Below are positions 3,999 through 20,187 of a DNA stretch of 64,000 nucleotides, one piece after another. The stretch covers positions 806,001-870,000 of the forward strand of contig NZ_CP108458.1 of assembly GCF_036242395.1 (NCBI RefSeq). Reading direction: 5' to 3'. The number at the start of each line of letters is the position of its first letter. The stretch's first letter is position 1. The notes beneath the pieces were generated by a model. The model made no database searches, was not told the DNA's origin, and was given only the letters and a program-made list of their open reading frames with translations. Source of the stretch: Kitasatospora sp. NBC_01266. GTDB taxonomy: Bacteria > Actinomycetota > Actinomycetes > Streptomycetales > Streptomycetaceae. The translations under genes were made by a program, and so were the position numbers.

Positions 3999-4170
3999 CA
4001 TTGTACGTAATCCGCACGAACTACAGGTAGCCGAAGCCGGGTCAGGCATCCGGTTGGCCGGCCTGTCTTTCAACGTTCAGTGCCGTCCGTAGATTCCGCG
4101 TCCCTTCCGCGCTCTCTCGTTGCGCTCACCTCGTTGCGCTCGCCTCGTTCCGTGCGCCGCGCTCACGCGT

Positions 4171-4270
4171 TCTCGTCCTGCGCGTTCCGTTCCGCGTTTG
4201 CGTTCCACGCGTATCCGTTCCACGCGTATCCGTTCCGCGTGTTGTTCCGCGCGTTCGGTTCCGCGCGTCC
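4171..4270. repeat. TTCCGCG / CGTATCCGTTCCACG simple repeats
   Basis: Imperfect tandem copies of CGTTCC plus ACGCG/GCG units, including a perfect 15-bp direct duplication (CCGTTCCACGCGTAT twice) near 4207-4237. The tract lies in the presumed 5' leader of the P450 gene. No function is evident. Confidence 0.6.
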
Positions 4271-4335: not shown

Positions 4336-5496
4336 ATGACCGTGGCGCCACACTACGACCCGCTCGACCCGGCCATGCTGGAAGACCCTTACCAACACTA
4401 CGCCGACCTGCGGGAGAACCACCCGATCTTCTGGCACGAGGGCATGAAGTCCTGGGTGGTGACCCGCTATCAGGACTGCCGTGACGTGCTGCGCAACAAC
4501 GAGCTCTTCGCTCGCGACCGGCGCCGGGTGGGCGAGGAGATTCCGGAGTTCCGGCAGAGCCTGCAGACCCTGGATCCACCGTCGCAGGCACCACTGCGCA
4601 GCCTGATCATGAACGCGTTCCGGGCGCAGGACCTCGACGCGGTGGGCCGCCGCGCCCGGGGGCGGATCCAGCAGTTGTTCAAGGATCTTGCCGAGCGGGA
4701 TTCCTTCGACTGGATGAGTGAGGTCGCGGCGCCGGTGGCGCTGTCGATCACGGCGGACCTGCTCGGTGTTCCGGAGCCGGATCCGGGCTACTACGCCGAG
4801 ATTTCCGAGGGAATCGCGCAGCGGATGGACGCGGGCCTGAAGCCGGCGAACATCGAACAGGGCGACCGGGCCCGCAACCAGCTCAACGCCCTCGCGGAGG
4901 AATGGTTCGCGGGTGAGGACCGCCCCGGGGTCCTGAAGGACATCAAGGACCGTGCCGCCGAGGCCCGGATGCCGATGCACTACATCAGCAACAGCACCGG
5001 CATGATGTTCAACGCGAGCTACGGGACGGTCTTCGCGACCGCCGGCAACGCGGTGCTGACGCTGCTCCAACACCCGTGGGCGCTGGAACGGCTGCGTGAC
5101 GAGCGGCTGCTCGGCACCGGCGTCGACGAGCTGGTCCGGTACGACGGCCCCGCCCAGGGGACCAGCCGGGTCGCGACCCGCACCACCGAGATCCAAGGGA
5201 CCACCATCGAGCCCGGCCAGATCGTGCTGACGCTGCTGGCCGCGGCCAATCGGGACCCCCGCGAGTTCCCGCGTCCGGACGAACTCGTCCTGGACCGCAC
5301 GCCCAACCGCCACCTGGGGTTCGGCTGGGGAACCCACGCCTGTGTGGGGGCCATGTTCGGCCGGGTTGCCGTTCGCGAGCTCATCGTCTGCCTGCTGGCC
5401 GCTCCGCAGCGGCTGCGGTTGGCGGGTGAGCCGACGCGTCGCCCGACGGCGACGGTGCGCAGCCCGGGCCTGTTCCCGGTCACCTTCGACCGGTGA
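4336..5496 (+). CDS. Cytochrome P450, probable peptide cross-linking enzyme (biarylitide-type)
   Basis: Soluble bacterial P450 of 386 aa. The heme loop FGWGTHACVG places the thiolate at Cys336, and the K-helix ExxR is Glu265-Arg268. The I-helix is unusual: NASYGT (226-231) stands where most P450s have an AGxE/DT motif, so the acid of the acid-alcohol pair is replaced by Gly. A 5-codon minigene for MSYDH starts 37 bp after the stop. In known biarylitide clusters a P450 joins the Tyr and His side chains of pentapeptides such as MRYYH, and I infer the same role here on Y3 and H5. The start at ATG 4336 gives normal family length. A fusion to the upstream open frame would only add low-complexity sequence. 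Confidence 0.88.
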   Translation: MTVAPHYDPLDPAMLEDPYQHYADLRENHPIFWHEGMKSWVVTRYQDCRDVLRNNELFARDRRRVGEEIPEFRQSLQTLDPPSQAPLRSLIMNAFRAQDLDAVGRRARGRIQQLFKDLAERDSFDWMSEVAAPVALSITADLLGVPEPDPGYYAEISEGIAQRMDAGLKPANIEQGDRARNQLNALAEEWFAGEDRPGVLKDIKDRAAEARMPMHYISNSTGMMFNASYGTVFATAGNAVLTLLQHPWALERLRDERLLGTGVDELVRYDGPAQGTSRVATRTTEIQGTTIEPGQIVLTLLAAANRDPREFPRPDELVLDRTPNRHLGFGWGTHACVGAMFGRVAVRELIVCLLAAPQRLRLAGEPTRRPTATVRSPGLFPVTFDR

Positions 5497-5533
5497 ACGA
5501 CAGCCCGACCAGCCCGGAGAGGAGGGGTGCGCC

Positions 5534-5551
5534 ATGAGCTACGACCACTGA
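5534..5551 (+). CDS. Pentapeptide minigene MSYDH, putative RiPP precursor
   Basis: An 18-bp ORF, ATG through TGA, encodes Met-Ser-Tyr-Asp-His. It is preceded by a strong purine-rich ribosome-binding site (GGAGAGGAGG, with the core GGAGG at 5521-5525 and 8 nt of spacing), and it follows the P450 stop by 37 bp. The M-x-Y-x-H layout equals that of biarylitide precursors (MRYYH, MRYLH), where a P450 forms a Tyr-His biaryl bond and the first two residues are removed. The expected core is therefore the tripeptide Y-D-H. A 13-bp-stem hairpin starts 22 bp after the stop. Five codons can arise by chance, but the ribosome-binding site, the position and the adjacent P450 together are persuasive. Confidence 0.78.
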   Translation: MSYDH

Positions 5552-5573
5552 ACCCGTGCCTGAGAAGGGCGGG

Positions 5574-5604
5574 GACCGGGCACGGCCCGGCGCCGTGCCC
5601 GGTC
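5574..5604 (+). terminator. GC-rich hairpin after the pentapeptide minigene
   Basis: A perfect 13-bp inverted repeat (left arm 5574-5586, right arm 5592-5604) with a 5-nt loop, no U-tract. It lies between the minigene and the amidinotransferase, so it may act as a partial terminator or RNA stabiliser. Either would make the P450/precursor RNA more abundant than the downstream tailoring genes. Confidence 0.6.
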
Positions 5605-5667
5605 ACTGTTCCCCGGTCCCCGGTCCCCGCTAGACATCTGTTTCGCACTCGCACGAAAGGCTGGTCC

Positions 5668-6813
5668 ATGCAGCTGAACAGCCATGACGAGTGGTCGCCG
5701 CTGAAGGAGATCATCGTCGGGTCCGCCGCGAACTACACCTCGCACGACCGCGAGCTCTCCTTCGACCTGTTCTTCCACGAGAACCTCTTCCGCTCGGACT
5801 GGGCCTACCCGCGGCTTCGGCAGGGGCACACGGAGTCGCTCGGGGAGCGCTCATGGCGGATCAAGCAGCAGTACGTGGAGGAGCTGAACGAGGATGTCGA
5901 GGGCCTGGCCAGGACCCTCGCCGGGCTCGGCGTCACCGTGCACCGGCCGCTCCCGCTGCCGCCGGACGCCGCACCGATCGCCGGCTTCGGCTGGAGCGCT
6001 GCCCCGGTACCCCCGCTGAACCTGCGGGACAACACGCTGATCCTCGGTGACGAGATCGTCGAGACCCCGCCGGCCATCCGCTCGCGCTACCTGGAGACCC
6101 GGTTGCTGGCCCCGGTCTTCACCCGGTACTTCGAACTCGGCGCGAAGTGGACCACGATGCCGCGGCCGATCCTCACCGACGCCTCCTTCGACCTGTCCTA
6201 CGCGCGGGACACCGAGACCACGCTCGGCGGCCCCACCGAACCGATCGCGGACCCGCGGTCCTCCCCGTACGACGTCGGCTTCGAGATGATGCTCGACGGC
6301 GCCCAGTGCCTACGCCTCGGCCGCGACCTGATCGTCAACATCGCCAACGCCAACCACGCCGCCGCCTGCGACTGGCTGGAGCGGCACCTGCGCGGCACCT
6401 ACCGGGTCCACCGGGTCCACCGGATGAGCGACAACCACATCGACAGCATGCTGCTGGCGTTGCGCCCGGGGACGTTCCTGGCCCGCCACGAGGGCATCCG
6501 GGACCTGCTGCCCGCGCCGTTCAACACCTGGAAGGTGATCGTCCCGCCGCGGCCGAGCGAGACGCACTTCCCGGTCTACGACGACGGCGACCTGATCCTG
6601 ACGACGCCCTACATCGACCTCAACGTGCTGTCGGTCAGCCCGTCCGAGGTGCTGGTGAACGAGGACTGCGTGGAGCTGATCAAGACGCTGGAGCACGAGG
6701 GCTTCACGGTGATTCCGGTGCGGCACCGCCACCGCCGCCTGTTCGGCGGCGGATTCCACTGCTTCACGCTCGACACGGTGCGCGAGAGCACCCTCGAGGA
6801 CTACTCCGCCTGA
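5668..6813 (+). CDS. Glycine/inosamine amidinotransferase-family enzyme
   Basis: Transfers the amidino group of arginine to an amine, making a guanidino compound, by way of a covalent amidino-Cys intermediate. The 381-aa length is normal. The catalytic set is intact: Asp210 in MMLDGAQC, His257 in SDNHIDSMLL and Cys365 in GGGFHCFTLD, matching the Asp/His/Cys triad of vertebrate AGAT and bacterial StrB1-type enzymes. The start is ATG 5668, with GAAAGG upstream. The acceptor is unknown. With a PGM1-like ligase next door, a guanidino amino acid that caps the peptide, or direct guanidination of the peptide amine, are both reasonable inferences. Confidence 0.9.
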   Translation: MQLNSHDEWSPLKEIIVGSAANYTSHDRELSFDLFFHENLFRSDWAYPRLRQGHTESLGERSWRIKQQYVEELNEDVEGLARTLAGLGVTVHRPLPLPPDAAPIAGFGWSAAPVPPLNLRDNTLILGDEIVETPPAIRSRYLETRLLAPVFTRYFELGAKWTTMPRPILTDASFDLSYARDTETTLGGPTEPIADPRSSPYDVGFEMMLDGAQCLRLGRDLIVNIANANHAAACDWLERHLRGTYRVHRVHRMSDNHIDSMLLALRPGTFLARHEGIRDLLPAPFNTWKVIVPPRPSETHFPVYDDGDLILTTPYIDLNVLSVSPSEVLVNEDCVELIKTLEHEGFTVIPVRHRHRRLFGGGFHCFTLDTVRESTLEDYSA

Positions 6814-6865: not shown

Positions 6866-8191
6866 GTGAAGCTGCTGATCGCGAACGAGGTCGACCCGAT
6901 GCTGTCCTGGGTCGACTGGCGGACCTACTCGCAGCGGCTGCTCTGGTTCGCCAAGGACGGCGACGCGCTGGTCCTGCCGGGCATACCTGACGCCGCCTTC
7001 CTGCGGCACGTCGCCGGCCTCACCGGGGTGGATCCGCGGACGGTCTCGTTCCACGTGCCGCCGGCCGGCCGCTACCTGGGCAAGGTGGTGGACCCGTACA
7101 GCCTGCTCGACGAGAACTTCGTCTCCGGACTGGCGAAGGCACTCGCCGACAAGGCGGACCCGGTCACCGAGATCCTGTCGTGCTGGCCGAGCCCGGTGCT
7201 CCCGCAGCTGGCCGGGCGGTTGGGGCTGCGCCACCTGGTCGCGGGCGCCGACTTCATCGAGCAGGGCGGCGGCGACCTGGCCAACAGCAAGGCCACCTTC
7301 CGGGCGCTGGCGGCCGCGGCGAACGTTCCGATCACCCCCGGTGCGGTCTGCCACACGGCGCACGACGCCGAGCAGGCCCTGCCCCGGCTGCTGCGCGGCA
7401 CCGGCGTGGTCCTGGTGAAGCAGTCGCACAACGGCGCCGGTGCGGGCAACCAGCTGGTGGTGCGCGATGATTCGCACGCCACCGGTCATGTCGGGGCGAA
7501 GTTGCTGCACCGGCTCGAGCCGGGCCCCGAGGCGATCCGCGACTATCTCGCCGAGCACTGGGACTGGGCCTCCCAGGGCGGCCACTACCCCGTGGTCATC
7601 GAGGAGTTCAAGCCGGCCTCGCGCACCGTCTACCTCGAGTTCGTCGCCGACGACGCCGGGGTCAGGCACACCGCCACCGGTGAACTCGACTACCAGGAGC
7701 GCCGGTTGGTGCGTGAGTCGACACCGGCGCACGGCCTGTCGGTCCGGCTGCGCGCCGGGCTGCTCACCGCGGCCGCCCAACTGGCCGAGCAGTACCGGGC
7801 GATGGGCTACCGCGGCTACATGAGTGCCGACGCGATCGTCGACGGCGCGGGGGGCTTCGTCTTCACCGAGATGAACGCCCGGGTGACCGGCTCACTGCAC
7901 ATCTACGGGCCCATCGCGGGCGAGGTGGTCCGGGCCGACCAGGCGCCGCAGCGGACCGTCAGCCAGCACCGCACACCGGCCGGGTGGCAGCCGATGGCGC
8001 TGGAGGAGTTCCTCGCGGCGGCCGAGGAGGCCGGCTGCGGATACGACCCTGCTTGGCGGCGCGGCGTCCTGGTCGCCATGCCGCCGATGCCCGGAGTGCG
8101 CGGCGGCTTCGACTTCTGCGTCGTGCACGGCTCGAGCACGGAGGAGCAGGACATCCTCCGCGCACTCGACACCCGCCTGCGGGCCGAATGA
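6866..8191 (+). CDS. ATP-grasp peptide ligase, PGM1-like (pre-ATP-grasp type)
   Basis: 441 aa with a GTG start supported by GGGAGG about 9 bp upstream. An N-terminal pre-ATP-grasp region (about 1-120, MKLLIANEVDPMLSW) precedes an ATP-grasp core: the lysine strand GVVLVKQSHNGAGAGN and the metal-binding segment FTEMNARVTGS. Size and layout recall PGM1, the pheganomycin ligase, which couples a guanidino-acid starter to the amino end of a ribosomal peptide. Recognition is from memory of the family, so the subfamily is less certain than the fold. The stop overlaps the exporter start (ATGA). The likely role is joining a guanidino acid to the cross-linked peptide. Confidence 0.8.
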   Translation: MKLLIANEVDPMLSWVDWRTYSQRLLWFAKDGDALVLPGIPDAAFLRHVAGLTGVDPRTVSFHVPPAGRYLGKVVDPYSLLDENFVSGLAKALADKADPVTEILSCWPSPVLPQLAGRLGLRHLVAGADFIEQGGGDLANSKATFRALAAAANVPITPGAVCHTAHDAEQALPRLLRGTGVVLVKQSHNGAGAGNQLVVRDDSHATGHVGAKLLHRLEPGPEAIRDYLAEHWDWASQGGHYPVVIEEFKPASRTVYLEFVADDAGVRHTATGELDYQERRLVRESTPAHGLSVRLRAGLLTAAAQLAEQYRAMGYRGYMSADAIVDGAGGFVFTEMNARVTGSLHIYGPIAGEVVRADQAPQRTVSQHRTPAGWQPMALEEFLAAAEEAGCGYDPAWRRGVLVAMPPMPGVRGGFDFCVVHGSSTEEQDILRALDTRLRAE

Positions 8192-9444
8192 CCGGGCGTG
8201 CCGCACTCGGCCTGAGTCCGCTGCGCGAGTCACCGGACTTCCGGCGTCTGTGGGTGGGCCAGGGACTGTCCCAGATCGGGGGGCAGCTGACGGTCTTCGC
8301 CGTCGCACTCCAGATGTACCGGCTGACCGGCAGTTCGGCCGCAGTCGGGGGGCTCGGCCTGGCGGTCGCCGTGCCGAACATCCTCTTCGCCGTGCTCGGC
8401 GGCAGTCTGGGCGACGCGGTCGACCGGCGCCGACTCGTGCTGGTCACGAGCTCCCTGCAGGCCGGGGTGTCCGCGCTGTTCGCCGCCCAGGCCCTGGCCG
8501 GCCTGCGCTCACCCGCGGTGCTGTACGCGCTGGTGGTGGTCCAGTCGCTGGTCGGCAGCGTGAACGCACCGGCCCGGCGCACCTTCATGGCCCGGCTGCT
8601 GCCCCGGGAACGGCTGGCGGCGGGTGCCGCGCTCAACACCCTGGCGCTGCAACTGGCCGCGGTGCTCGGACCGGCCTGCGCCGGGCTGATCGTCGCGCTC
8701 TGGGGTCTGCGCGCCTGCTACGCGCTGGACGCGATCAGCTTCGGCGCCGCCCTCTACGGCGTCGCACGGCTGCCGGCCATGCCACCGGCACCCGGTGCGC
8801 CGCGGCCCGGCCCGGCCGCCATCGGCGAGGCGTTCGGCTTCGTCCGGCACCGGAGCGAGGTGGCGGGCGCCTTCCTGACGGATCTGTCGATCGGGCTGGT
8901 CGCCTCGCCGACGGCGCTGCTGCCGGCGCTCGACGCCGAGCGGTTCGGCGGCCGGACAGGGGTGCTCGGGCTGCTGACCGCGGCCGGGGCGGTCGGGGGC
9001 GTGCTCGGCTCGGCCTCTTCGGGCCTGGCCGGGCGGGTGCAACGGCCGGGCCGGGGCGCGCTGGTCGGCTGCGCGGTGTACGGCCTGGCGGTGGCCGGGC
9101 TGGGCCTCGCACACTCGCTCTGGCTGGCGCTTGTGCTGCTCGCGCTCGCGGGCGCCGCCGACACCGCCGCGGTGGTCTTCCACTCGACGGTGGTCCAACT
9201 GGTGACGCCGGACCAGCTCCGGGGCCGGATCAGCGCGCTGGAGTACGTGGTCGGAATGGGAGGCTCCCAGCTGGGGCGGTTCCGCGCCGGCGCGATCGGG
9301 ACGCTCACCGGCACCACGGCCGCGATCACGGGCGGCGGCCTGGCCGCGGTCGGCGCAGCCGCGCTGGTGGGGGCGGCACTGCCGGCCTTCACCCGGTACC
9401 GCGTGAACGGCCCGGCCGACGCCCGTCCGGCGCCGGTCGGTTGA
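8188..9444 (+). CDS. MFS transporter, probable product exporter
   Basis: 418-aa integral membrane protein with about 12 helices. It starts in the ATGA overlap with the ATP-grasp gene. The N-terminus SPDFRRLWVGQGLSQIGGQ is typical of the MFS_3 / enterobactin exporter-like group. A conserved intracellular loop (GGSLGDAVDRRRLVL) matches MFS motif A, and TPDQLRGRISALEYVVGMGGSQLG matches the family's C-terminal half. Its position inside the biosynthetic operon suggests export of the finished compound and self-protection. Confidence 0.9.
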   Translation: MTGRAALGLSPLRESPDFRRLWVGQGLSQIGGQLTVFAVALQMYRLTGSSAAVGGLGLAVAVPNILFAVLGGSLGDAVDRRRLVLVTSSLQAGVSALFAAQALAGLRSPAVLYALVVVQSLVGSVNAPARRTFMARLLPRERLAAGAALNTLALQLAAVLGPACAGLIVALWGLRACYALDAISFGAALYGVARLPAMPPAPGAPRPGPAAIGEAFGFVRHRSEVAGAFLTDLSIGLVASPTALLPALDAERFGGRTGVLGLLTAAGAVGGVLGSASSGLAGRVQRPGRGALVGCAVYGLAVAGLGLAHSLWLALVLLALAGAADTAAVVFHSTVVQLVTPDQLRGRISALEYVVGMGGSQLGRFRAGAIGTLTGTTAAITGGGLAAVGAAALVGAALPAFTRYRVNGPADARPAPVG

Positions 9445-9544: not shown

Positions 9545-10777
9545 ATGCACGTGGTGCTGATCGGGGCCCGACCGGAGGCGGCGCGCGCCCTGCTGGACGG
9601 CGGCCACCGGGTGACCCTGCTCTACGAGGGCACCGAGCACGCCCGACTCCCGGCGCTGCGGGCCCGGCTCGCACACGCCTGCGCGGTCGACTCGTACCTG
9701 GTGGTCGAGTCGCTCTGGTCGGCCCTGCACCATGTCGGGGCGCTGGCGGACGGCGTGGACGCGGTGGTCTCGGTGCAGGAGCACGGCATGGTGCCGGCGG
9801 CCCTGCTCGGCCGGCTGCTCGGCGCCCGGGCGCTCGCCCCGGAACTGGCCCTGCGCTGCCGGGACAAGGCGCTGCAGAAGGCGGCCTGGCGGGCGGCCGG
9901 AGTGCCCACTGCGGACTGGCTGGTCCTGCCCGACGCGGGTGCCGAGGCGGAGCCGGTCAGCCGAACCGTGGCCCGGGCCGGGGTGACCGCGCCCTATGTG
10001 GTGAAGCCGACCGCCGGCGCGGCCACCATCGGTGTCGCCGCGGCGGCGGACGGGCCGGCCCTGGACCGACTGGCCGCGGAGCTGATCGCCGACTCCCAGA
10101 CCCGCCGCCGGCTGCTGGTGGAGAGCCGGGTCCCGGGCGACGAGTGGCACGCCGACGGGCTGGTCCGCGACGGGGCGCTCGAGGCACTGCTGGTCTCCCG
10201 CTACCGCACACCGCTGATCGAGACCAAGCAGGGGCACCCGAGCAGCACCGTCTCGCTGCTGCCGCGCCGGCACCCCGAGGTTTACCGGGAGGTCGCCGAC
10301 CTGACCCGGCGCGCGCTCGCCGCGCTGGGGCACGGCGACGGTGTCTTCCACTTCGAATTCTTCGGCGCACCAGGCGCGTTCACGGCCGGCGAGCTGGCCG
10401 CCCGGCCCGGTGGGCATTACATCGGGGCGCTGGTACAGCGGGTCCTCGGAGTGGACATCTGGGCCGCCGCCGCCCGTATCCTGCTGGGTGAACCGGTGCC
10501 GGTGGCGGCGGGGGCCGGGCAGCGGGTCGTCGGGTTCACGGACATCCCGACCGTGGCGGGGCGGCCCAACCGGCTGACCCGCGAGGAGGTCGAAAGCATC
10601 CCGGGGGTCGTGGAGTTGGAGATCAAGATCCCCCCGGGGGAGGTGATGCCCGACATGAGCGCCAACTCCGGGATCCGGATCGGAACGGCGCTGGTCGAGG
10701 CGGCAACCGAGCAGGACTGCCTCGCGGCTCTCGACCAGGTGACAGAAACCGCCCTGAAGGCCAACCAGGCACCCTGA
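9545..10777 (+). CDS. Second ATP-grasp ligase
   Basis: 410-aa carboxylate-amine ligase-like protein. The start at ATG 9545 has AAGGAAAG just upstream; the longer open frame runs through repeats and is not used. The N-terminal Rossmann-like part begins MHVVLIGARPEAARALL. The ATP-grasp core shows VVKPTAGAATIGVA and the metal-ligand segment FHFEFFGAPGAFTAGELAAR followed by PGG, as in biotin-carboxylase/DdaF-type ligases. It resembles dipeptide-forming or amidating ligases and probably adds an amino acid to the peptide or its cap. Two different ligases imply at least two new amide bonds. The substrate is unknown. Confidence 0.85.
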   Translation: MHVVLIGARPEAARALLDGGHRVTLLYEGTEHARLPALRARLAHACAVDSYLVVESLWSALHHVGALADGVDAVVSVQEHGMVPAALLGRLLGARALAPELALRCRDKALQKAAWRAAGVPTADWLVLPDAGAEAEPVSRTVARAGVTAPYVVKPTAGAATIGVAAAADGPALDRLAAELIADSQTRRRLLVESRVPGDEWHADGLVRDGALEALLVSRYRTPLIETKQGHPSSTVSLLPRRHPEVYREVADLTRRALAALGHGDGVFHFEFFGAPGAFTAGELAARPGGHYIGALVQRVLGVDIWAAAARILLGEPVPVAAGAGQRVVGFTDIPTVAGRPNRLTREEVESIPGVVELEIKIPPGEVMPDMSANSGIRIGTALVEAATEQDCLAALDQVTETALKANQAP

Positions 10778-10873: not shown

Positions 10874-11878
10874 ATGGAGTACCAGTCCGTCGAACGCGCA
10901 CCCGAGGATTTCCAGCAGCCGGTTTCCCCGAACCTGATCGAGGCGATGTGCCGCCGGGCGTTCGGCGACGACGTGACCGTGCTCTCGGCGGTCGAACTCG
11001 GTGGCGGCATGTACAACACCACCTACCGGGTCGACCTGGAGCAGCACGGGCCGTTCATCCTGCGGATCGCACCGGAGCAGGCCCGGCAGTACCGCAGCGA
11101 GCGCGGGCTGATGCGCAACGAGCACGCGAGCGTGCCCTACCTCGCGCCGATCGCGGCACTGATGCCGCGCACCGTCGCCGCCGACTTCACCCATGACCTC
11201 GTCGACCGGGACTACCTGTTCCAGACCGAGCTGCCCGGCCTACCCGCACCCGAGGGACTGGCCGGCTACCCGCGGCCCCGGTGGCGTTCGTTCTTCGCGC
11301 AGTTGGGGACCATCGCGAGGGCGATCCACAGCGTGCGCGGACCGCGCTTCGGCCCGGTCGCCGGCCCCGGCTTCGGCTCCTGGAGCGAGGCCGTGCTGGC
11401 CGGATTCGAGGAGGCCGCGGCCGACCTCGGCGATGCCGGACTGGACGCCAAGGACGTGCTGGAAGTCGCCGCCCTCGCGGACCGCGACCGCGCGGTGTTC
11501 GACGAGATCGCCGAACCCCGACTGCTGCACGGAGACCTCTGGACGATCAACCTGATGGTCTCGCCGGACGCGCCGGAACCCACCATCACCGGGGTCTTCG
11601 ACGGCGACCGCACCAGCTTCGGTGACCCGGAGGCCGACTGGGTGATCTTCATGGCCACCCGGCGCCCCGGCACCGAGCGGGACTCCTTCTGGGAGACCTG
11701 GGGGCCGCTCGGGGACAGCGCGCAGGCGCGCCGCCGCCGCCTCTTCTACCAGGCCCGCCACACCGCGGCGATCCGCCTGGAGGCCCATCGCCTGAACCAG
11801 CCGGACGACGCCGCCACCACCTACGAGGACATGCGTCGGCTGCTGGCCGAGCTGGGAGCCCAGGGGCTCGAACCCTGA
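10874..11878 (+). CDS. Aminoglycoside phosphotransferase-fold (APH) kinase
   Basis: 334 aa. The kinase-like catalytic loop is LLHGDLWTINLM with base Asp221 and Asn226; the metal-binding loop is VFDGDRTSFGDPEAD with Asp243. These match the APH/choline kinase family. The N-terminal segment with GGGMYNTTYRVD resembles the nucleotide loop. The ribosome-binding site GAAAGGGGA precedes ATG 10874. It is separated from the ligases by 96 bp and is probably in the same transcript. It may phosphorylate the product, as self-resistance or as activation of an intermediate. Nothing in the sequence distinguishes these. Confidence 0.82.
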   Translation: MEYQSVERAPEDFQQPVSPNLIEAMCRRAFGDDVTVLSAVELGGGMYNTTYRVDLEQHGPFILRIAPEQARQYRSERGLMRNEHASVPYLAPIAALMPRTVAADFTHDLVDRDYLFQTELPGLPAPEGLAGYPRPRWRSFFAQLGTIARAIHSVRGPRFGPVAGPGFGSWSEAVLAGFEEAAADLGDAGLDAKDVLEVAALADRDRAVFDEIAEPRLLHGDLWTINLMVSPDAPEPTITGVFDGDRTSFGDPEADWVIFMATRRPGTERDSFWETWGPLGDSAQARRRRLFYQARHTAAIRLEAHRLNQPDDAATTYEDMRRLLAELGAQGLEP

Positions 11879-13863: not shown

Positions 13864-15207
13864 TCAGGCCAGCCCACCGATCCCGAAGGGGACGAAGAAG
13901 AACGTCTTGCTGGGATACGGACCGCTCCCACCCATGAGGGGCACGGGAGTCGCCACAACCTCGGCGTCCTGGGGCATCGGAAAGCAGAAGGAGGTGTTCT
14001 TCGCGACTGACAGCGTGTAACTCCCCGCGGACCGCCGGACGGTGAATTGAAAGCCGTAATTTCCTTCAGCATCCCCGAAGATCATTCCATCGCTGGCGAA
14101 CCTCATCGTCCTCGCCACGTTCAGCGGAACAACAAGCTGATGGACCGCATTCCCACCCATGACCTTCGCTGATCCCCTCACGTCGAGCCCTCCCTTGACG
14201 ACAGCGCTGCCCTCAACCTCAAGGCCATCGTGCGCGATCGTTTTGCCATGGACCTCAAGGGGACCCTTGGAGAGGCTGGTGCCGACGATGATTCCCTTTC
14301 CACTGGCCTGCAAGACGTCGAGTGCGTGAACGGCGCCACTGACCACGAGCTTGTCGCGCACGTGCAGGTTCTGCGCCGTCGCGCTCCCATCGACCGTGAG
14401 GTCGTCATGGGCATGGGCCTTGCCGTAGACGTTGAGATGGCCGACTTCGAGGTCGGGCTTGTCGACGGTGACGGCGGTGGTGAGGGTGTGGATGAAGCTC
14501 GCGTCTTCGGCCGAGGTGGCCTGGAGCATGAAGCCGGTGGTGTTGTGCAGTTTGGGTGAGGTCCACTTGGGTTCGGTATTGACATCCGGGTCGGACTGAT
14601 CGTCCCAGTACATGACGCAGGTGCCGTTCTGGATCTCCCAGGTGAGCGTGACGGGGTCGCCGTTCGCCACCATGATCCTGCTCGGGCGCAGATTGCGGAA
14701 CAAGAAGCCGGGTGGCGCCTTGTCGACCGTGATCCGGACCGGATCCTTCGGCGTGAAGTTGCCGTTGGTGGGTGAGGTCTCCTCGATGACCTCGATCACC
14801 GGCTTGCCGACCACCTTGTTGATCGGAATCTGCGAGATGACCAGGGTCACCGCCCACTGCCCCGTGAACTGCGGCGCCCGACCCGGGGTGAAGGTGAAGA
14901 CCCGCTTGTTCCCCTCCGCGACGGCGGTCGCGCTCCAACCGTTGCCCTGCTCCGGCAGTGTGCCGCCAGTGACGGACTGCTTGATGTCGTCGTTGTTGAC
15001 GGTGGTCAACTCCGCCGCACCGGCACCGATCGGGATCTTCACGATGATCTTCTTGCAGTACGCGGCCGTCGTCATGGTCCGGCCCACCGTGATGTCGAGC
15101 CGGCCGGTGACCGGATCCTTGTCGGTACTCGCGTTCAACGGATCCGTCGGACTCGTCGCGAGCGAGTAGCTGAGCAGCGCATCGGCGGAAGTGGCGTGGA
15201 TGGCCAT
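13864..15207 (-). CDS. Tandem paralog 1: Ig-like/stalk/tip protein with the longest stalk
   Basis: 447 aa, unrecognised family. The N-terminal ~250 residues, starting MAIHATSADALLSYSLATSP, are about the same in four more genes upstream. A segment with VTLTWEIQNGTCVMYWDD and later NTTGFMLQATS looks like an Ig-like sandwich. Residues ~246-340 form regular short repeats of the L-x-V-x-G type (LEVHGK, LEVEGS, LDVRGS), which fit a beta-helical stalk. The last ~100 residues form a tip domain with SDGMIFG and FFFVPFG, close to paralog 5. No signal peptide is seen. The start has AAGGA upstream, and the same leader sequence precedes paralogs 2 and 4. It is the last gene of the block. Confidence 0.75.
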   Translation of the reverse strand: MAIHATSADALLSYSLATSPTDPLNASTDKDPVTGRLDITVGRTMTTAAYCKKIIVKIPIGAGAAELTTVNNDDIKQSVTGGTLPEQGNGWSATAVAEGNKRVFTFTPGRAPQFTGQWAVTLVISQIPINKVVGKPVIEVIEETSPTNGNFTPKDPVRITVDKAPPGFLFRNLRPSRIMVANGDPVTLTWEIQNGTCVMYWDDQSDPDVNTEPKWTSPKLHNTTGFMLQATSAEDASFIHTLTTAVTVDKPDLEVGHLNVYGKAHAHDDLTVDGSATAQNLHVRDKLVVSGAVHALDVLQASGKGIIVGTSLSKGPLEVHGKTIAHDGLEVEGSAVVKGGLDVRGSAKVMGGNAVHQLVVPLNVARTMRFASDGMIFGDAEGNYGFQFTVRRSAGSYTLSVAKNTSFCFPMPQDAEVVATPVPLMGGSGPYPSKTFFFVPFGIGGLA

Positions 15208-15258
15208 GCTGTCGTCCTTGTCCGGAGGTTCAGGAGCCTGGGGCGGGGCCGAGCTTCG

Positions 15259-16407
15259 TCATGCCGGGTCCGGCAGACGACCACCTCCGAACGCGTGCCA
15301 GACGAGGTTCTGGGCATGAGCGGTCTGCCTCGTCCACCTGAGACTCACCACCTCGCCGCTGAGTACGGGAATGGAGACATACCGCCAATTCTGAGCGCTC
15401 GTTCCCGGAGGACTGTCCAGGTCGTAGGAGGCTCCGCCGACCTGGATGGCAAGAGCACCCGACAGGACCCTGACCACGAGAATCCCGTCACTGTTCGCCG
15501 TGGTATTGGCCCACTGATTCAGCGGGGAACTGAAATTGATCACTTGCCTGGTCATGAGGTTCGATACGCCTTCGACAGCCAGCCCGCGGTGCACGGCGAG
15601 GCCGTCATGGGCCTCGGCCTCGCCATAGACGTTGAGGTGGCCGACTTCCAGGTCGGGTTTGGCGACGGTCACGGCAGTGGTGAGGGTGTGGACGAAGGTG
15701 GCGTCCTCGGCCGAAGTGGCCTGGAGCATGAAGCCGGTGGTGTTGTGCAGCTTGGGCGAAACCCACCTGGGTTCGGAGTTGACGTTCGGGTCGGACTTGT
15801 CGTCCCAGTACAGGACGCAGGTGCCGTTCTGGATCTCCCAGGTGAGGGTGACCTTCTCGCCGTTCTCCACCATGATCTTGCTGGGGCTCAGGTTGCGGAA
15901 CAGGAAGCCGGGCGGCGCCTTGTCGACCGTGATCCGGACCGGATCCTTCGGCGTGAAGCTACCGTTGGTGGGCGAAGTCTCCTCAATGACCTCAATCACC
16001 GGCTTGCCGACCACCTTGTTGATCGGAATCTGCGAGATGACCAGGGTCACCGCCCACTGCCCGGTGAACTGCGGCGCCCGACCTGGCGTGAAGGTGAAGA
16101 CCCGCTTGTTGCCCTCCGCCGTGGCGGTCGCGGTCCAACCACCGCCCTGCTCAGGCGCGGTACCACCGATGACCGACTGCTTGATGTTCTCGTCGTTGAC
16201 CGTGGTCAACTCCGCCGCACCGGCACCGATCGGGATCTTCACGACGATCTTCTTGCAGTACGCGGCCGTGGTCATGTTCCGGCCCACCGTGATATCGAGC
16301 CGGCCCGTGACCGGATCCTTGTCCGTACTCGCGTTCAACGGATCCGTCGGACTCGTCGCGAGCGAGTAACTGAGCAGCGCATCGGCGGAAGTGGCGAGGA
16401 TGGCCAT
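15259..16407 (-). CDS. Tandem paralog 2: constant N-terminus, distinct tip
   Basis: 382 aa. The N-terminal ~250 residues (MAILATSADALLSYSLATSP) are nearly identical to those of paralogs 1 and 4. The stalk is short (HLNVYGEAEAHDGLAVHRG). The C-terminal ~120 residues differ from paralogs 1, 3 and 5. They keep a TNSDGIL-like turn and end LVWHAFGGGRLPDPA, a last-strand pattern shared with paralog 4 (DWYGFGGERLPMP). This suggests the tips share one fold but differ in surface. The upstream 77 bp retain the scar of the 1,332-aa gene's end. Confidence 0.75.
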   Translation of the reverse strand: MAILATSADALLSYSLATSPTDPLNASTDKDPVTGRLDITVGRNMTTAAYCKKIVVKIPIGAGAAELTTVNDENIKQSVIGGTAPEQGGGWTATATAEGNKRVFTFTPGRAPQFTGQWAVTLVISQIPINKVVGKPVIEVIEETSPTNGSFTPKDPVRITVDKAPPGFLFRNLSPSKIMVENGEKVTLTWEIQNGTCVLYWDDKSDPNVNSEPRWVSPKLHNTTGFMLQATSAEDATFVHTLTTAVTVAKPDLEVGHLNVYGEAEAHDGLAVHRGLAVEGVSNLMTRQVINFSSPLNQWANTTANSDGILVVRVLSGALAIQVGGASYDLDSPPGTSAQNWRYVSIPVLSGEVVSLRWTRQTAHAQNLVWHAFGGGRLPDPA

Positions 16408-16484
16408 GCTGTCGTCCTTGTCCGAGGGTCAGATGCGTGGAGTGAACGGAGTTGGAGGTCGGTGCGGCAGAACACCCGCAGGAC

Positions 16485-17612
16485 TCACCACGGAACGATT
16501 CCCAGGAACTCCAGCTCGCCGTCGCCGAAGGAGCACCAGGACAGCGTGGCCTCGATATCCTGCCAATAATACTGGAGGAAGTGCATGCACTCCCCCTGCT
16601 GCAGCGGGACGGAGAGGGTCTTCTCCTCATCCCCGGAGCCCACGTCGGCGCTGAACCTGGCGATCAGGTCGTGATGGTCGCTACCCTCGGCTCGAATCCG
16701 CAGGTCGATGTTCCTGGCATCGGGACCGGTTCGCCTGAAGGTCACCGCCACGATGCCGTCGGTGGTCGCCCGCCAGTCACTGCTGTCCGCCATCGCGACC
16801 GGCGGGTGGCGGCGCAGGATCCTCGCCTTCCCGTAGACGGTGAGGTCGCCGATCTCGAGATCGGGCTTGTCCACGGTGACGGCGGTGGTGAGGGTGTGGA
16901 TGAAGCTGGCGTCCTCGGCCGAGACGGCTTGCAGCATGAACGCGGTGGTGTTGTGCAGCGCGGGCGAGGTCCACCTGGGTTCCTTGCTGACGTCCGCGCC
17001 GGGCTGGTCGTCCCAGTACATGGTGCAACGGGCGTTCTGGACCTCCCAGGTGAGGGTGACGGGATCACCGTTCGGCACCATGATCTTGCTCGGACGCAGA
17101 TTGCGGAACAGGAAGCCGGGCGGGGCCTTGTCGACAATGATCGTGGTGGTCTTCGCAGTGAAGTTGCCGTTGGTGGGCGAGCTTTCCTCGATGACCTCGA
17201 TGACCGGCTTGCCGACCACCTTGTTGATCGGGATCTGCGAGATGACCAGGGTCACCGCCCACTGCCCGGTGAACTGCGGCGCCCGGCCCGGGGTGAAGGT
17301 GAAGACCCGCTTGTTGCCCTCCGCCGTGGCGGTCGCGGTCCAACCGTTGCCCTGATCCGGCGCGGTGCCACCAGTGACCGACTGCTTGATGTCGTCGGTG
17401 TTGACGGTGGTCAACTCCGCGGCGCCGGCGCCGATCGGGATCTTGACCGTGATCTTCCGACAGTACGCGGCCGCGGTCACATCCCGGCCGACCGTGATGT
17501 TGAGCCGCCCGATGACGGGGTCCTTGTCGGTGCTCGCGTTCAGCGGGTCCGTCGGGCTGGTGGCGAGGGCGTAGCTGAGCAGTCCGTCGGCGGAACGGGT
17601 GTAGACGGTCAC
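16485..17612 (-). CDS. Tandem paralog 3: constant N-terminus, distinct tip
   Basis: 375 aa with a GTG start and AGGAGA upstream. The N-terminus begins MTVYTRSADGLLSYALATSP and has Lys-Thr-Thr-Thr in place of the Pro-Val-Arg loop, placing it in a subgroup with paralog 5. The stalk is almost absent (LTVYGKARILRR). The tip is unlike the others, with an acidic segment (ADVGSGDEEKTLSVPLQQGE), but it retains the TTDGI turn and an ending in SFGDGELEFLGIVPW. Unknown function. Confidence 0.75.
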   Translation of the reverse strand: MTVYTRSADGLLSYALATSPTDPLNASTDKDPVIGRLNITVGRDVTAAAYCRKITVKIPIGAGAAELTTVNTDDIKQSVTGGTAPDQGNGWTATATAEGNKRVFTFTPGRAPQFTGQWAVTLVISQIPINKVVGKPVIEVIEESSPTNGNFTAKTTTIIVDKAPPGFLFRNLRPSKIMVPNGDPVTLTWEVQNARCTMYWDDQPGADVSKEPRWTSPALHNTTAFMLQAVSAEDASFIHTLTTAVTVDKPDLEIGDLTVYGKARILRRHPPVAMADSSDWRATTDGIVAVTFRRTGPDARNIDLRIRAEGSDHHDLIARFSADVGSGDEEKTLSVPLQQGECMHFLQYYWQDIEATLSWCSFGDGELEFLGIVPW

Positions 17613-17717
17613 GCGGTTCTCCTGGCCTCGAGCTTCAGCTGTGTTGGGGAGCGGTCGAGTTGGAAGTGGTCGGCGCGGGCGGTGGCTATCTGGTTCACAT
17701 CTGAACCAAGCCGCTCA

Positions 17718-18815
17718 TCAGGGCATCGGCAGGCGTTCTCCCCCAAAGCCGTACCAGTCGACGAATGCACCCCCTACCGCACCGATCCATTTCAGCTCCA
17801 CCCTCCCTCCCTTGAGGATCGGGAACGTTCGGGGGTTGGTGTCTTCCGGAATGACGTAAGTGCGCCCGCCGCCGCCGGGTTTGTAGACAGACAGCTCCAG
17901 ACGCCCTGAGTTGACCTTGACCTCGAGGAGCCCGTCAGTAGGCGCAGTAGCCGCCTTGGGCCACTGGTCAGTTGGTGCGGACAGACCGTGCCAGCCCAAT
18001 GCGGAGGCTGTCCCCCGGTGGGTCACGTCGCCGCGAATGTCGAGGTTGCGAACTTCGAGGTCCGGCATGTTGACCATGACGGCGGTGGTGAGGGTGTGGA
18101 CGAAGCTGGCGTCCTCGGCCGAAGTCGCCTGGAGCATAAAGCCGGTGGTGTTGTGCAACTTGGGCGAGACCCACCTGGGTTCCTTGTTGACGTCCGGGTC
18201 GGACTGGTCGTCCCAGTACAGGACGCAGGTACCGTTCTGGATCTCCCAGGTGAGGGTGACCTCCTCGCCGTTCTCCACCATGATCTTGCTCGGGCGCAGG
18301 TTCCGGAACAGGAAGCCGGGCGGCGCCTTGTCCACCGTGATCCGGACCGGATCCTTCGAGGTGAAGTTGCCGTTGGTCGGCGAGGTCTCCTCGATGACCT
18401 CGATCACCGGCTTGCCGACCACCTTGTTGATCGGAATCTGCGAGATGACCAGGGTCACCGCCCACTGCCCGGTGAACTGCGGCGCCCGACCCGGGGTGAA
18501 GGTGAAGACCCGCTTGTTCCCCTCCGCCATGGCGGTCGCGGTCCAACCACCGCCCTGCTCCGGCGCGGTACCACCGATGACCGACTGCTTGATGTTCTCG
18601 TCGTTGACCGTGGTCAACTCCGCCGCACCGGCACCGATCGGGATCTTCACGACGATCTTCCGACAGTACGCGGCCGTCGTCATGTTCCGGCCCACCGTGA
18701 TATCGAGCCGGCCGGTGACCGGATCCTTGTCCGTACTCGCGTTCAACGGATCCGTCGGACTCGTCGCGAGCGAGTAACTGAGCAACGCATCGGCGGAGGT
18801 CGCGTGGATGGCCAT
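17718..18815 (-). CDS. Tandem paralog 4: constant N-terminus, distinct tip
   Basis: 365 aa from ATG 18815, chosen because AAGGA lies just upstream and the paralogs begin at the same residue. The frame is open further upstream to 18953, and that extra stretch encodes a remnant of the 1,332-aa protein's C-terminus, so an N-terminally extended form is possible. The tip (from about TASALGWHGLSAPTDQW) is closest to that of paralog 2, ending DWYGFGGERLPMP. Confidence 0.75.
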   Translation of the reverse strand: MAIHATSADALLSYSLATSPTDPLNASTDKDPVTGRLDITVGRNMTTAAYCRKIVVKIPIGAGAAELTTVNDENIKQSVIGGTAPEQGGGWTATAMAEGNKRVFTFTPGRAPQFTGQWAVTLVISQIPINKVVGKPVIEVIEETSPTNGNFTSKDPVRITVDKAPPGFLFRNLRPSKIMVENGEEVTLTWEIQNGTCVLYWDDQSDPDVNKEPRWVSPKLHNTTGFMLQATSAEDASFVHTLTTAVMVNMPDLEVRNLDIRGDVTHRGTASALGWHGLSAPTDQWPKAATAPTDGLLEVKVNSGRLELSVYKPGGGGRTYVIPEDTNPRTFPILKGGRVELKWIGAVGGAFVDWYGFGGERLPMP

Positions 18816-19010
18816 GCTGTCGTCCTTGTCCGGAGGTTCAATCGCCTGGAGCGGGGCGAAGTTGGAGGTAGCCGGCACGGGCGCTGGGGACCGGGTCGTC
18901 CGGTGGGCGGCCCTGTCCACCTGGAGGACGGGCAGTTCACCCCAGTTGGGCACCGGGCCAGCAGCTATGTGGGGCTCGACCGAGGTCCAGTCACCGTGCC
19001 AGGCGGCGGA
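18816..19010 (-). pseudogene. Duplicated 3' fragment of the 1,332-aa gene
   Basis: Read on the minus strand, this stretch encodes AWHGDWTSVEPHIAAGPVPN and then WGELPVLQVDRAAH. It aligns residue by residue with the last ~60 codons of the 20210-24208 gene (AWHGDWTWAEPYVTAGPVPD, WGELPILQADSADH). The original stop codon is out of frame here, leaving the fragment in frame with paralog 4. It is a clear recombination footprint of tandem duplication. Confidence 0.85.
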
Positions 19011-19098
19011 TCAAGGCAGGGTGAGATAACCGCGCAGTCACGCCTACCGACAGGTGCGGAGATGCGCCGCACGTCGACCGCAGCCGCATGCATCCCGG

Positions 19099-20187
19099 TC
19101 AAATTGGCCCACCGAATCCGAACGGAACAAAGAAGAACGTGCTACTGGGGTACGGCCCACTTCCACCCATGGGTGACGTTTTCACGACAACATCTGCATC
19201 CTGAGGCACCGGAAAGCAGAAATATTCACCCTTTCCGAAGTTCAGCGTGTAGCTTCCCGCCGAACGTCGGACCGCGAACTCCAACTCGTGCCCCTTGTTG
19301 CTATTCCCGAAGATCATTCCATCCGTACTGAACTGCATGGTCTTCGGCTCTTTCATCGTAACCGTGAGACTGTGCACGACGCCTCCCGCCATGATTTTCG
19401 CAATTCCTCCAATTTCGAGGTTGCGAATTTCGAGGTCGGGCTTGTCCACGGTGACGGCGGTGGTGAGGGTGTGGATGAAGCTGGCGTCCTCGGCCGAGAC
19501 GGCTTGCAGCATGAACGCGGTGGTGTTGTGCAGCGCGGGCGAGGTCCACCTGGGTTCCTTGCTGACGTCCGCGCCGGGCTGGTCGTCCCAGTACATGGTG
19601 CAACGGGCGTTCTGGACCTCCCAGGTGAGGGTGACGGGATCACCGTTCGGCACCATGATCTTGCTCGGACGCAGGTTACGGAACAGGAACCCGGGCGGGG
19701 CCTTGTCCACCACGATCGTGGTGGTCTTCGCGGTGAAGTTGCCGTTGGTGGGCGAGCTTTCCTCGATGACCTCGATGACCGGCTTGCCGACCACCTTGTT
19801 GATCGGGATCTGCGAGATGACCAGGGTCACCGCCCACTGCCCGGTGAACTGCGGCGCCCGGCCCGGGGTGAAGGTGAAGACCCGCTTGTTGCCCTCCGCC
19901 GTGGCGGTCGCGGTCCAACCGTTGCCCTGATCCGGCGCGGTGCCACCAGTGACCGACTGCTTGATGTCGTCGGTGTTGACGGTGGTCAACTCCGCGGCGC
20001 CGGCGCCGATCGGGATCTTGACCGTGATCTTCCGACAGTACGCGGCCGCGGTCACATCCCGGCCGACCGTGATGTTGAGCCGCCCGACGACGGGGTCCTT
20101 GTCGGTGCTCGCGTTCAGCGGGTCCGTCGGGCTGGTGACGAGGGCGTAGCTGAGCAGTCCGTCGGCGGAACGGGTGTAGACGGTCAC
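19099..20187 (-). CDS. Tandem paralog 5: constant N-terminus, tip like paralog 1
   Basis: 362 aa, GTG start with AAGGAGG. It lies 22 bp after the 1,332-aa gene and is thus the copy in the ancestral position. The N-terminal ~250 residues are nearly identical to paralog 3. The short stalk (IRNLEIGGIAKIMAGG) leads to a tip related to paralog 1: DGMIFGNSNKG, RRSAGSYTLNFG and GGSGPYPSSTFFFVPFG. Sharing a tip with a copy that has a different N-terminal subtype shows that the ends have been shuffled. Confidence 0.75.
   Translation of the reverse strand: MTVYTRSADGLLSYALVTSPTDPLNASTDKDPVVGRLNITVGRDVTAAAYCRKITVKIPIGAGAAELTTVNTDDIKQSVTGGTAPDQGNGWTATATAEGNKRVFTFTPGRAPQFTGQWAVTLVISQIPINKVVGKPVIEVIEESSPTNGNFTAKTTTIVVDKAPPGFLFRNLRPSKIMVPNGDPVTLTWEVQNARCTMYWDDQPGADVSKEPRWTSPALHNTTAFMLQAVSAEDASFIHTLTTAVTVDKPDLEIRNLEIGGIAKIMAGGVVHSLTVTMKEPKTMQFSTDGMIFGNSNKGHELEFAVRRSAGSYTLNFGKGEYFCFPVPQDADVVVKTSPMGGSGPYPSSTFFFVPFGFGGPI

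Follow-up and report, generated by a model that had tools for sequence, protein, structure and literature searches.

The closest described systems are the biarylitides, ribosomal peptides made from an 18-bp gene for M-x-Y-x-H/Y next to a P450 of the biarylitide clade. In those carrying YYH or YFH (Planomonospora) or YLH (P450Blt), and in myxarylin, the precursor has five residues with a Y-x-H pattern and the neighbouring P450s are related. One I-helix position of these enzymes is His in C-N cross-linkers and Val or Leu in C-C cross-linkers, and the myxarylin P450 is inactivated by His226Val (PMC12951456). Regarding precursor position 4, Glu is not accepted by the P450 AchB (PMC13417212); Asp is accepted in vitro by the myxarylin P450, so that Asp4 as such is no obstacle to cross-linking. 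A survey of July 2026 counted 277 biarylitide clusters, 47 of them with Asp4 and a homologue of the Pgm1 ligase, which it termed hybrids of biarylitide and pheganomycin machinery; it states the biological function of biarylitides as unknown (PMC13417212). The same article describes the sav cluster of Saccharothrix variisporea, with the precursor MRYVH, the amidinotransferase savT and the Asp-hydroxylase savH, whose heterologous expression gave the cross-linked tripeptide only, with no further modification despite the amidinotransferase (PMC13417212). In pheganomycin biosynthesis, an amidinotransferase goes with PGM1, which couples a small core peptide with a guanidino acid (PMC8939145). Finally, RufO of the rufomycin pathway is a related P450 acting on a pentapeptide, its nitrating geometry being ascribed to Asp169 of its His-5 network (PMC12186263).

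The locus considered here is found in Kitasatospora sp. NBC_01266, in a window of 64,000 nucleotides, the whole stretch of DNA that was analysed. Its features are as follows.

4336..5496, + strand: biarylitide-type cytochrome P450, predicted cross-linking enzyme, 386 aa (PF00067, PDB matches, tree, residue mapping)
5516..5525, + strand: ribosome-binding site GGAGAGGAGG, 8 nt before the minigene ATG (sequence)
5534..5551, + strand: pentapeptide minigene, MSYDH-stop, 18 bp, predicted precursor (sequence, rarity, conservation)
5574..5604, + strand: perfect hairpin, stem of 13 bp, loop of 5 nt, without a T-run, between the minigene and the amidinotransferase gene
5668..6813, + strand: amidinotransferase, 381 aa, related to StrB and AGAT (PDB 1bwd, 2.9e-42; 1jdw, 5.5e-41)
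6866..8191, + strand: PGM1-like ATP-grasp peptide ligase, 441 aa, GTG start (PDB 3wvq, PGM1, 6.2e-68; PF18604)
8188..9444, + strand: predicted MFS exporter (PF05977/PF07690)
9545..10777, + strand: second ATP-grasp enzyme, L-amino-acid-ligase-like (PDB 4wd3, 6.1e-20; PF18603 just below the cut-off)
10874..11878, + strand: APH-family phosphotransferase (PF01636, 3.6e-19)

Around this operon, imperfect tandem repeats (ACGCGTATCCGTTCC-like) occupy positions 4164-4268, directly 5′ of the P450 gene, and possibly belong to a promoter region. A caspase-domain protein (PF00656) is encoded farther upstream of the P450 (2210-3775, + strand). On the − strand, positions 13864-20187 hold five adjoining ORFs of 362-447 aa, grouped as one family; an N-terminus with ATSADALLSYSLATSPTDPLNASTDKDP is common to those at 13864-15207 and 15259-16407.

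The minigene, first described in a sequence-only reading of this DNA, is real. It starts 37 bases after the P450 stop and reads ATG, AGC, TAC, GAC, CAC and TGA (ATGAGCTACGACCACTGA), behind GGAGAGGAGG and the 8-nt spacer GGTGCGCC. The pattern ATGNNNTAYNNNCAYTGA occurs a single time in the genome of 8,569,703 bases (8.57 Mb, both strands) and its reversed version 0 times. Among 70 genomes of the same genus, ATGNNNTAYGAYCAYTGA has 3 matches, in three genomes (reversed control, 0), all of them within 2.5 kb of one amidinotransferase family. This confirms that the MSYDH minigene is not a chance pattern. In the nearest relative, locus L112, whose P450 is 78% identical, the 18 bases of the minigene are the same, and the remaining intergenic region aligns only with many gaps. 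The hairpin reported after the minigene is likewise present. As an intrinsic terminator it was rejected, the segment 3776-5700 containing 0 terminator-like sites and the hairpin having no T-run; the folding of the whole stretch 5497-5670 is not significantly better than that of shuffled sequences (z -1.24; 22 of 200 as good).

Conservation was assessed by scanning a 44-sequence P450 alignment against genome contigs; from 108 related places, the best 80 were retained and loci from genomes of the same genus added; identity of at least 38% defined the related P450 loci (n=54), beside a distant set (n=57). A fixed rule searched both strands up to 1.5 kb from the P450 and required an ATG start, Tyr, His or Trp at positions 3 and 5, and a ribosome-binding site whose best six-base match was at least 5/6. 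By this rule a minigene accompanies 45 of the 54 related P450s, MxYDH being encoded in 33 of the 45, versus 0 of the 57 distant ones, for some of which the available flank was shorter than 1.5 kb. When L137, obtained via the minigene pattern, and L138, obtained via the amidinotransferase, are set aside, 44 of 52 loci have a minigene. Shuffled flanks, in which base composition and not dinucleotides was kept, gave 0.07 of 54 loci. Thus, the test named in the sequence-only reading, whether homologous P450 loci keep the minigene, comes out in its favour.

Five of the nine loci missed by the fixed rule have a candidate under looser rules: MMYNH and MIYNH in L037 and L038, lying 8.7 and 10.1 kb away from the start of the P450, MTYDH at -1722 in L039, VFYDH with a GTG start in L068, and MSYDY at about 5 kb in L138. 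All five stand outside the 45/54, yet are counted in the amidinotransferase survey described below, and the first four also among the 39 MxY[DN]H-paired P450s. Another missed locus, L080, has a shortened P450 and was omitted from the tree. In the last three (L049, L063 and L114; 3 of 54 related loci), no minigene was found, looser rules included.

Of the 33 MxYDH genes, 24 encode Ser as the second residue; the others have Phe, Thr, Gly, Ile or Arg there. Ser2 is written with three codons, TAT is used in two genes, GAT in one and a TAA stop in three. The minigene lies 3′ of the P450 in the window, L112, L032, L033, L034, L042, L046 and L047 and upstream in most other loci; it is antisense, about 0.9 kb upstream of the P450, in L035 and L036 and, by the looser criteria, kilobases away in some. 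That the peptide motif stays while its place shifts argues for a peptide free to diffuse and against an element acting in cis. Several variants were encountered. L113 has two MSYNH copies upstream of the P450, Asn-4 variants like those of L037 and L038. The MSYDY of L138 (7576, + strand), a Tyr-Asp-Tyr variant with a purine-rich ribosome-binding site, neighbours genes for a PGM1-like ligase, an amidinotransferase, a kinase and a carbamoyltransferase. The Lysinibacillus loci L040 and L041 carry three and four MQWNY copies upstream, matching the copy-number variation reported in PMC13417212.

The P450 bears the heme motif FGWGTHACVG. Its nearest named relative is from a Kitasatospora (80%), and its ten best PDB matches by sequence search include RufO (8spp, 9duj) and P450Blt (8u2m; structure names from PMC12186263). 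In a tree of 60 sequences, which samples 6 of the 57 distant P450s and from which the RufO, P450Blt and SlyP sequences are absent, the window P450 pairs with that of L112 (96/90), within a branch of 18 (100/99) and a larger one of 51 (98/95). Of these 51 P450s, 48 go with a minigene, MRYAY loci included, and for 3 none was found. The myxarylin-type pair, which includes locus L072 (Pyxidicoccus strain CA032A, named in PMC8708641), falls outside, joined by two Amycolatopsis outgroup sequences on a long branch. The placement of the window P450 among minigene-bearing loci agrees with the second check of the sequence-only reading, which would have failed had the enzyme clustered away from biarylitide P450s. 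The assignment of the enzyme to the biarylitide type, as well as the Y-x-H residue pattern, is therefore upheld, and with the 18-bp M-x-Y-x-H gene and a neighbouring P450 of the biarylitide clade, the biarylitide type of the locus is well supported. Two P450s close to that of the window in the tree (L049, L063) are without a DPP motif and without a detected minigene; their function has perhaps changed. Together with L114, these loci count against the proposal made below.

The P450 is predicted to form a bond between Tyr3 and His5 of MSYDH. The nature of this bond is less easily anticipated. Asn226 occupies the I-helix position of P450Blt His234 and RufO His235, where the described YYH/YFH, YLH and myxarylin enzymes have His or Val/Leu, and the His and Glu which position His5 in P450Blt and RufO correspond to Asn226 and Gly230. 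Considering these two residues and the His-to-Val precedent of myxarylin, cross-linking by the window P450 is not assured. The P450s paired with MxY[DN]H, the window and the looser minigenes included, have Asn (13) or Gln (26) at this switch position (n=39). The residue is Leu with MRYAY (5/5), His with MNYLH or MRYLH (3/3), Thr with MQWNY (2/2), Met with MSYDY and Asn with MDYSH; the loci where no minigene was found have Ile, Ile and Gln. Asn and Gln track two branches of the tree, and thus reflect few events, not 39. As they also appear in the distant set (Asn in 7, Gln in 1 of 57), an amide in this column alone is not diagnostic. Because of Asn/Gln at the switch, the bond type is not transferable from characterised members.

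The sequence-only reading had overlooked four enzymes encoded downstream, namely the amidinotransferase, the PGM1-like ligase, the second ATP-grasp enzyme and the kinase, whose presence makes a bare cross-linked YDH unlikely as the end product. The ligase, the amidinotransferase and the kinase, as well as Asp4, set the operon apart from the YYH/YFH, YLH and myxarylin loci. The view of that reading that Asp4 defines a new core does not hold: Asp4 precursors with a Pgm1 ligase already occur in the 47 clusters of PMC13417212, and the window locus, with Asp4 and a Pgm1 ligase homologue, belongs to that known group. It shares with it the Asp4 motif, the P450 and the Pgm1-type ligase, and differs in that no homologue of the Asp-hydroxylase was found in its genome and its minigene comes after the P450. 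With pheganomycin it shares a PGM1-like ligase beside an amidinotransferase and a ribosomal peptide, the joining of a guanidino acid being suggested by the gene pair; unlike in that system, the precursor is a pentapeptide accompanied by a P450, and no annotated gene of the operon suggests the pheganomycin phenylglycine. In the amidinotransferase the cysteine of GGGFHC aligns and is present, although Pfam and NCBIfam gave no match at 1e-3; for the phosphotransferase, the PDB gave none at 1e-3.

On these grounds, it may be proposed, with moderate confidence, that the operon is built on the MSYDH minigene, with a predicted Tyr3-His5 join by the P450, and that the amidinotransferase and the PGM1-like ligase cap Tyr-Asp-His with a guanidino acid. 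In such a pathway, the 18-bp gene would be translated, as its ribosome-binding site and conservation suggest, the P450 would cross-link residues 3 and 5, by a bond that Asn226 does not fix, and a general protease would take off Met-Ser. The amidinotransferase would make a guanidino acid from an amino acid, to be coupled to the peptide N-terminus by the PGM1-like ligase, as PGM1 does in pheganomycin. The second ATP-grasp enzyme may add a further residue, the kinase may phosphorylate the product or an intermediate, perhaps as a means of self-protection, and export would fall to the MFS protein. A bolder version, which we regard as rather unlikely, would assign the cross-linking of Tyr-Asp-His to a P450 of a third mechanistic type, marked by the Asn/Gln switch and making a bond unlike C-N or C-C, before capping with a guanidino acid.

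The distribution of the gene pair was followed with a codon-usage script of our own, which misses genes in the relatives. The amidinotransferase and the ligase recur in 30 of 52 compared loci, at 68-86% and, in nearly all, 42-48% identity to those of the window (L112 ligase, 68%). Five MxYDH loci (L032, L033, L034, L035, L036) have neither in the stretch examined, and L047 has the ligase only. A survey covered 45 loci, picked by P450 or amidinotransferase similarity and therefore not random, with 46 amidinotransferase genes in all; there, every M/V-x-Y-[DN]-[HY]-stop within a locus was taken as a minigene, ribosome-binding site not required. A PGM1-like ligase lies within 9.5 kb of the amidinotransferase in 32/32 cases with a minigene and in 10/14 without. 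The pairs without a minigene are 60-68% (amidinotransferase) and 35-38% (ligase) identical to those of the window, a contrast which might fit a shared building block delivered to differing acceptors. The argument is weak, the ligase being also just 38-48% identical in most minigene clusters. One further pair was seen in the same genome (L136, 8885-13041; C1:7398893), with an AMP-binding/carrier protein between the two genes and no minigene found; it perhaps represents another guanidino-peptide cluster.

The minigene-linked amidinotransferases, including that of the window, group in a single branch (SH-aLRT 100, quick tree), which could equally well reflect an enzyme that has specialised in the peptide as its own substrate. 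The amidinotransferase would then act on the N-terminal Tyr of the cross-linked tripeptide, and the PGM1-like ligase would join the C-terminal or Asp4 carboxylate to another amine. Of the 55 P450s compared, that of the window among them, 39 are paired with a precursor whose residue 4 is Asp or Asn, which could mean that this side chain is used, and a gene family resembling Asp/Asn-hydroxylases (one member identified by Pfam) is found in 25 of 53 surveyed loci. We nevertheless consider this order of events unlikely, because PGM1 joins a guanidino acid to a peptide (PMC8939145) and related amidinotransferase-ligase pairs also occur where no minigene was found. Capping with a guanidino acid has its own difficulty in the sav result, which, by analogy, would count against it at the window locus. 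The sav cluster also combines a biarylitide P450 with an amidinotransferase; unlike the window, it has Val4 and a hydroxylase, and no ligase is named for it in the text of PMC13417212. As for hydroxylation of Asp4 in the present organism, it was rejected: no hydroxylase-like homologue was found in the genome or in genome G019, and the same search does detect that of G067. A Pfam search of the genome for the hydroxylase gave no match, and its controls gave none either. Members of the APH-family kinase family were found in 27 of the 53 surveyed loci.

With RufO among the nearest solved structures and two nitric-oxide-synthase-like genes in the genome, it could be imagined that the P450 nitrates Tyr3, the peptide being a disposable scaffold on which an unusual amino acid is made. 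This is very improbable. Neither gene is in the cluster, their distances along the contig being about 3.7 and 6.4 Mb, and RufO Asp169 and Val240 are replaced in the window P450 by Ala161 and Thr231 (Val and Ser in P450Blt). RufO Glu239 is missing as well, but it is present in P450Blt, so that this loss does not separate RufO from P450Blt. Lastly, the strong hairpin and the adjoining amidinotransferase gene might recall an upstream ORF or attenuator acting in cis on that gene, an idea hardly credible in the face of relatives' motifs lying before the P450, on the opposite strand or, by looser criteria, kilobases off, of codons that vary while residues are kept, and of a hairpin sequence which, from the alignment by eye, is not common to L112.

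Three details go beyond the text of PMC13417212: the single branch of minigene-linked amidinotransferases, a type of cassette lacking the hydroxylase, and Asn or Gln at the switch position. We found no product reported for any Asp-4 cluster, a point against the proposed pathway, and none is named in the text of that article, nor does YDH appear in its main text; among the whole words MSYDH, YDH, MxYDH and biarylitide, no two were found together in any paper of the open-licence literature. For the Asp-4/Pgm1 group, the window locus offers a compact operon in which to look for a product. Precursor genes of such small size slip past gene finders. Asn226 is a single residue at which the determinant of the cross-link type could be probed. 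If a third type of P450 and capping with a guanidino acid were indeed combined here, they would amount to a hybrid of biarylitide and pheganomycin chemistry starting from the smallest known kind of gene.
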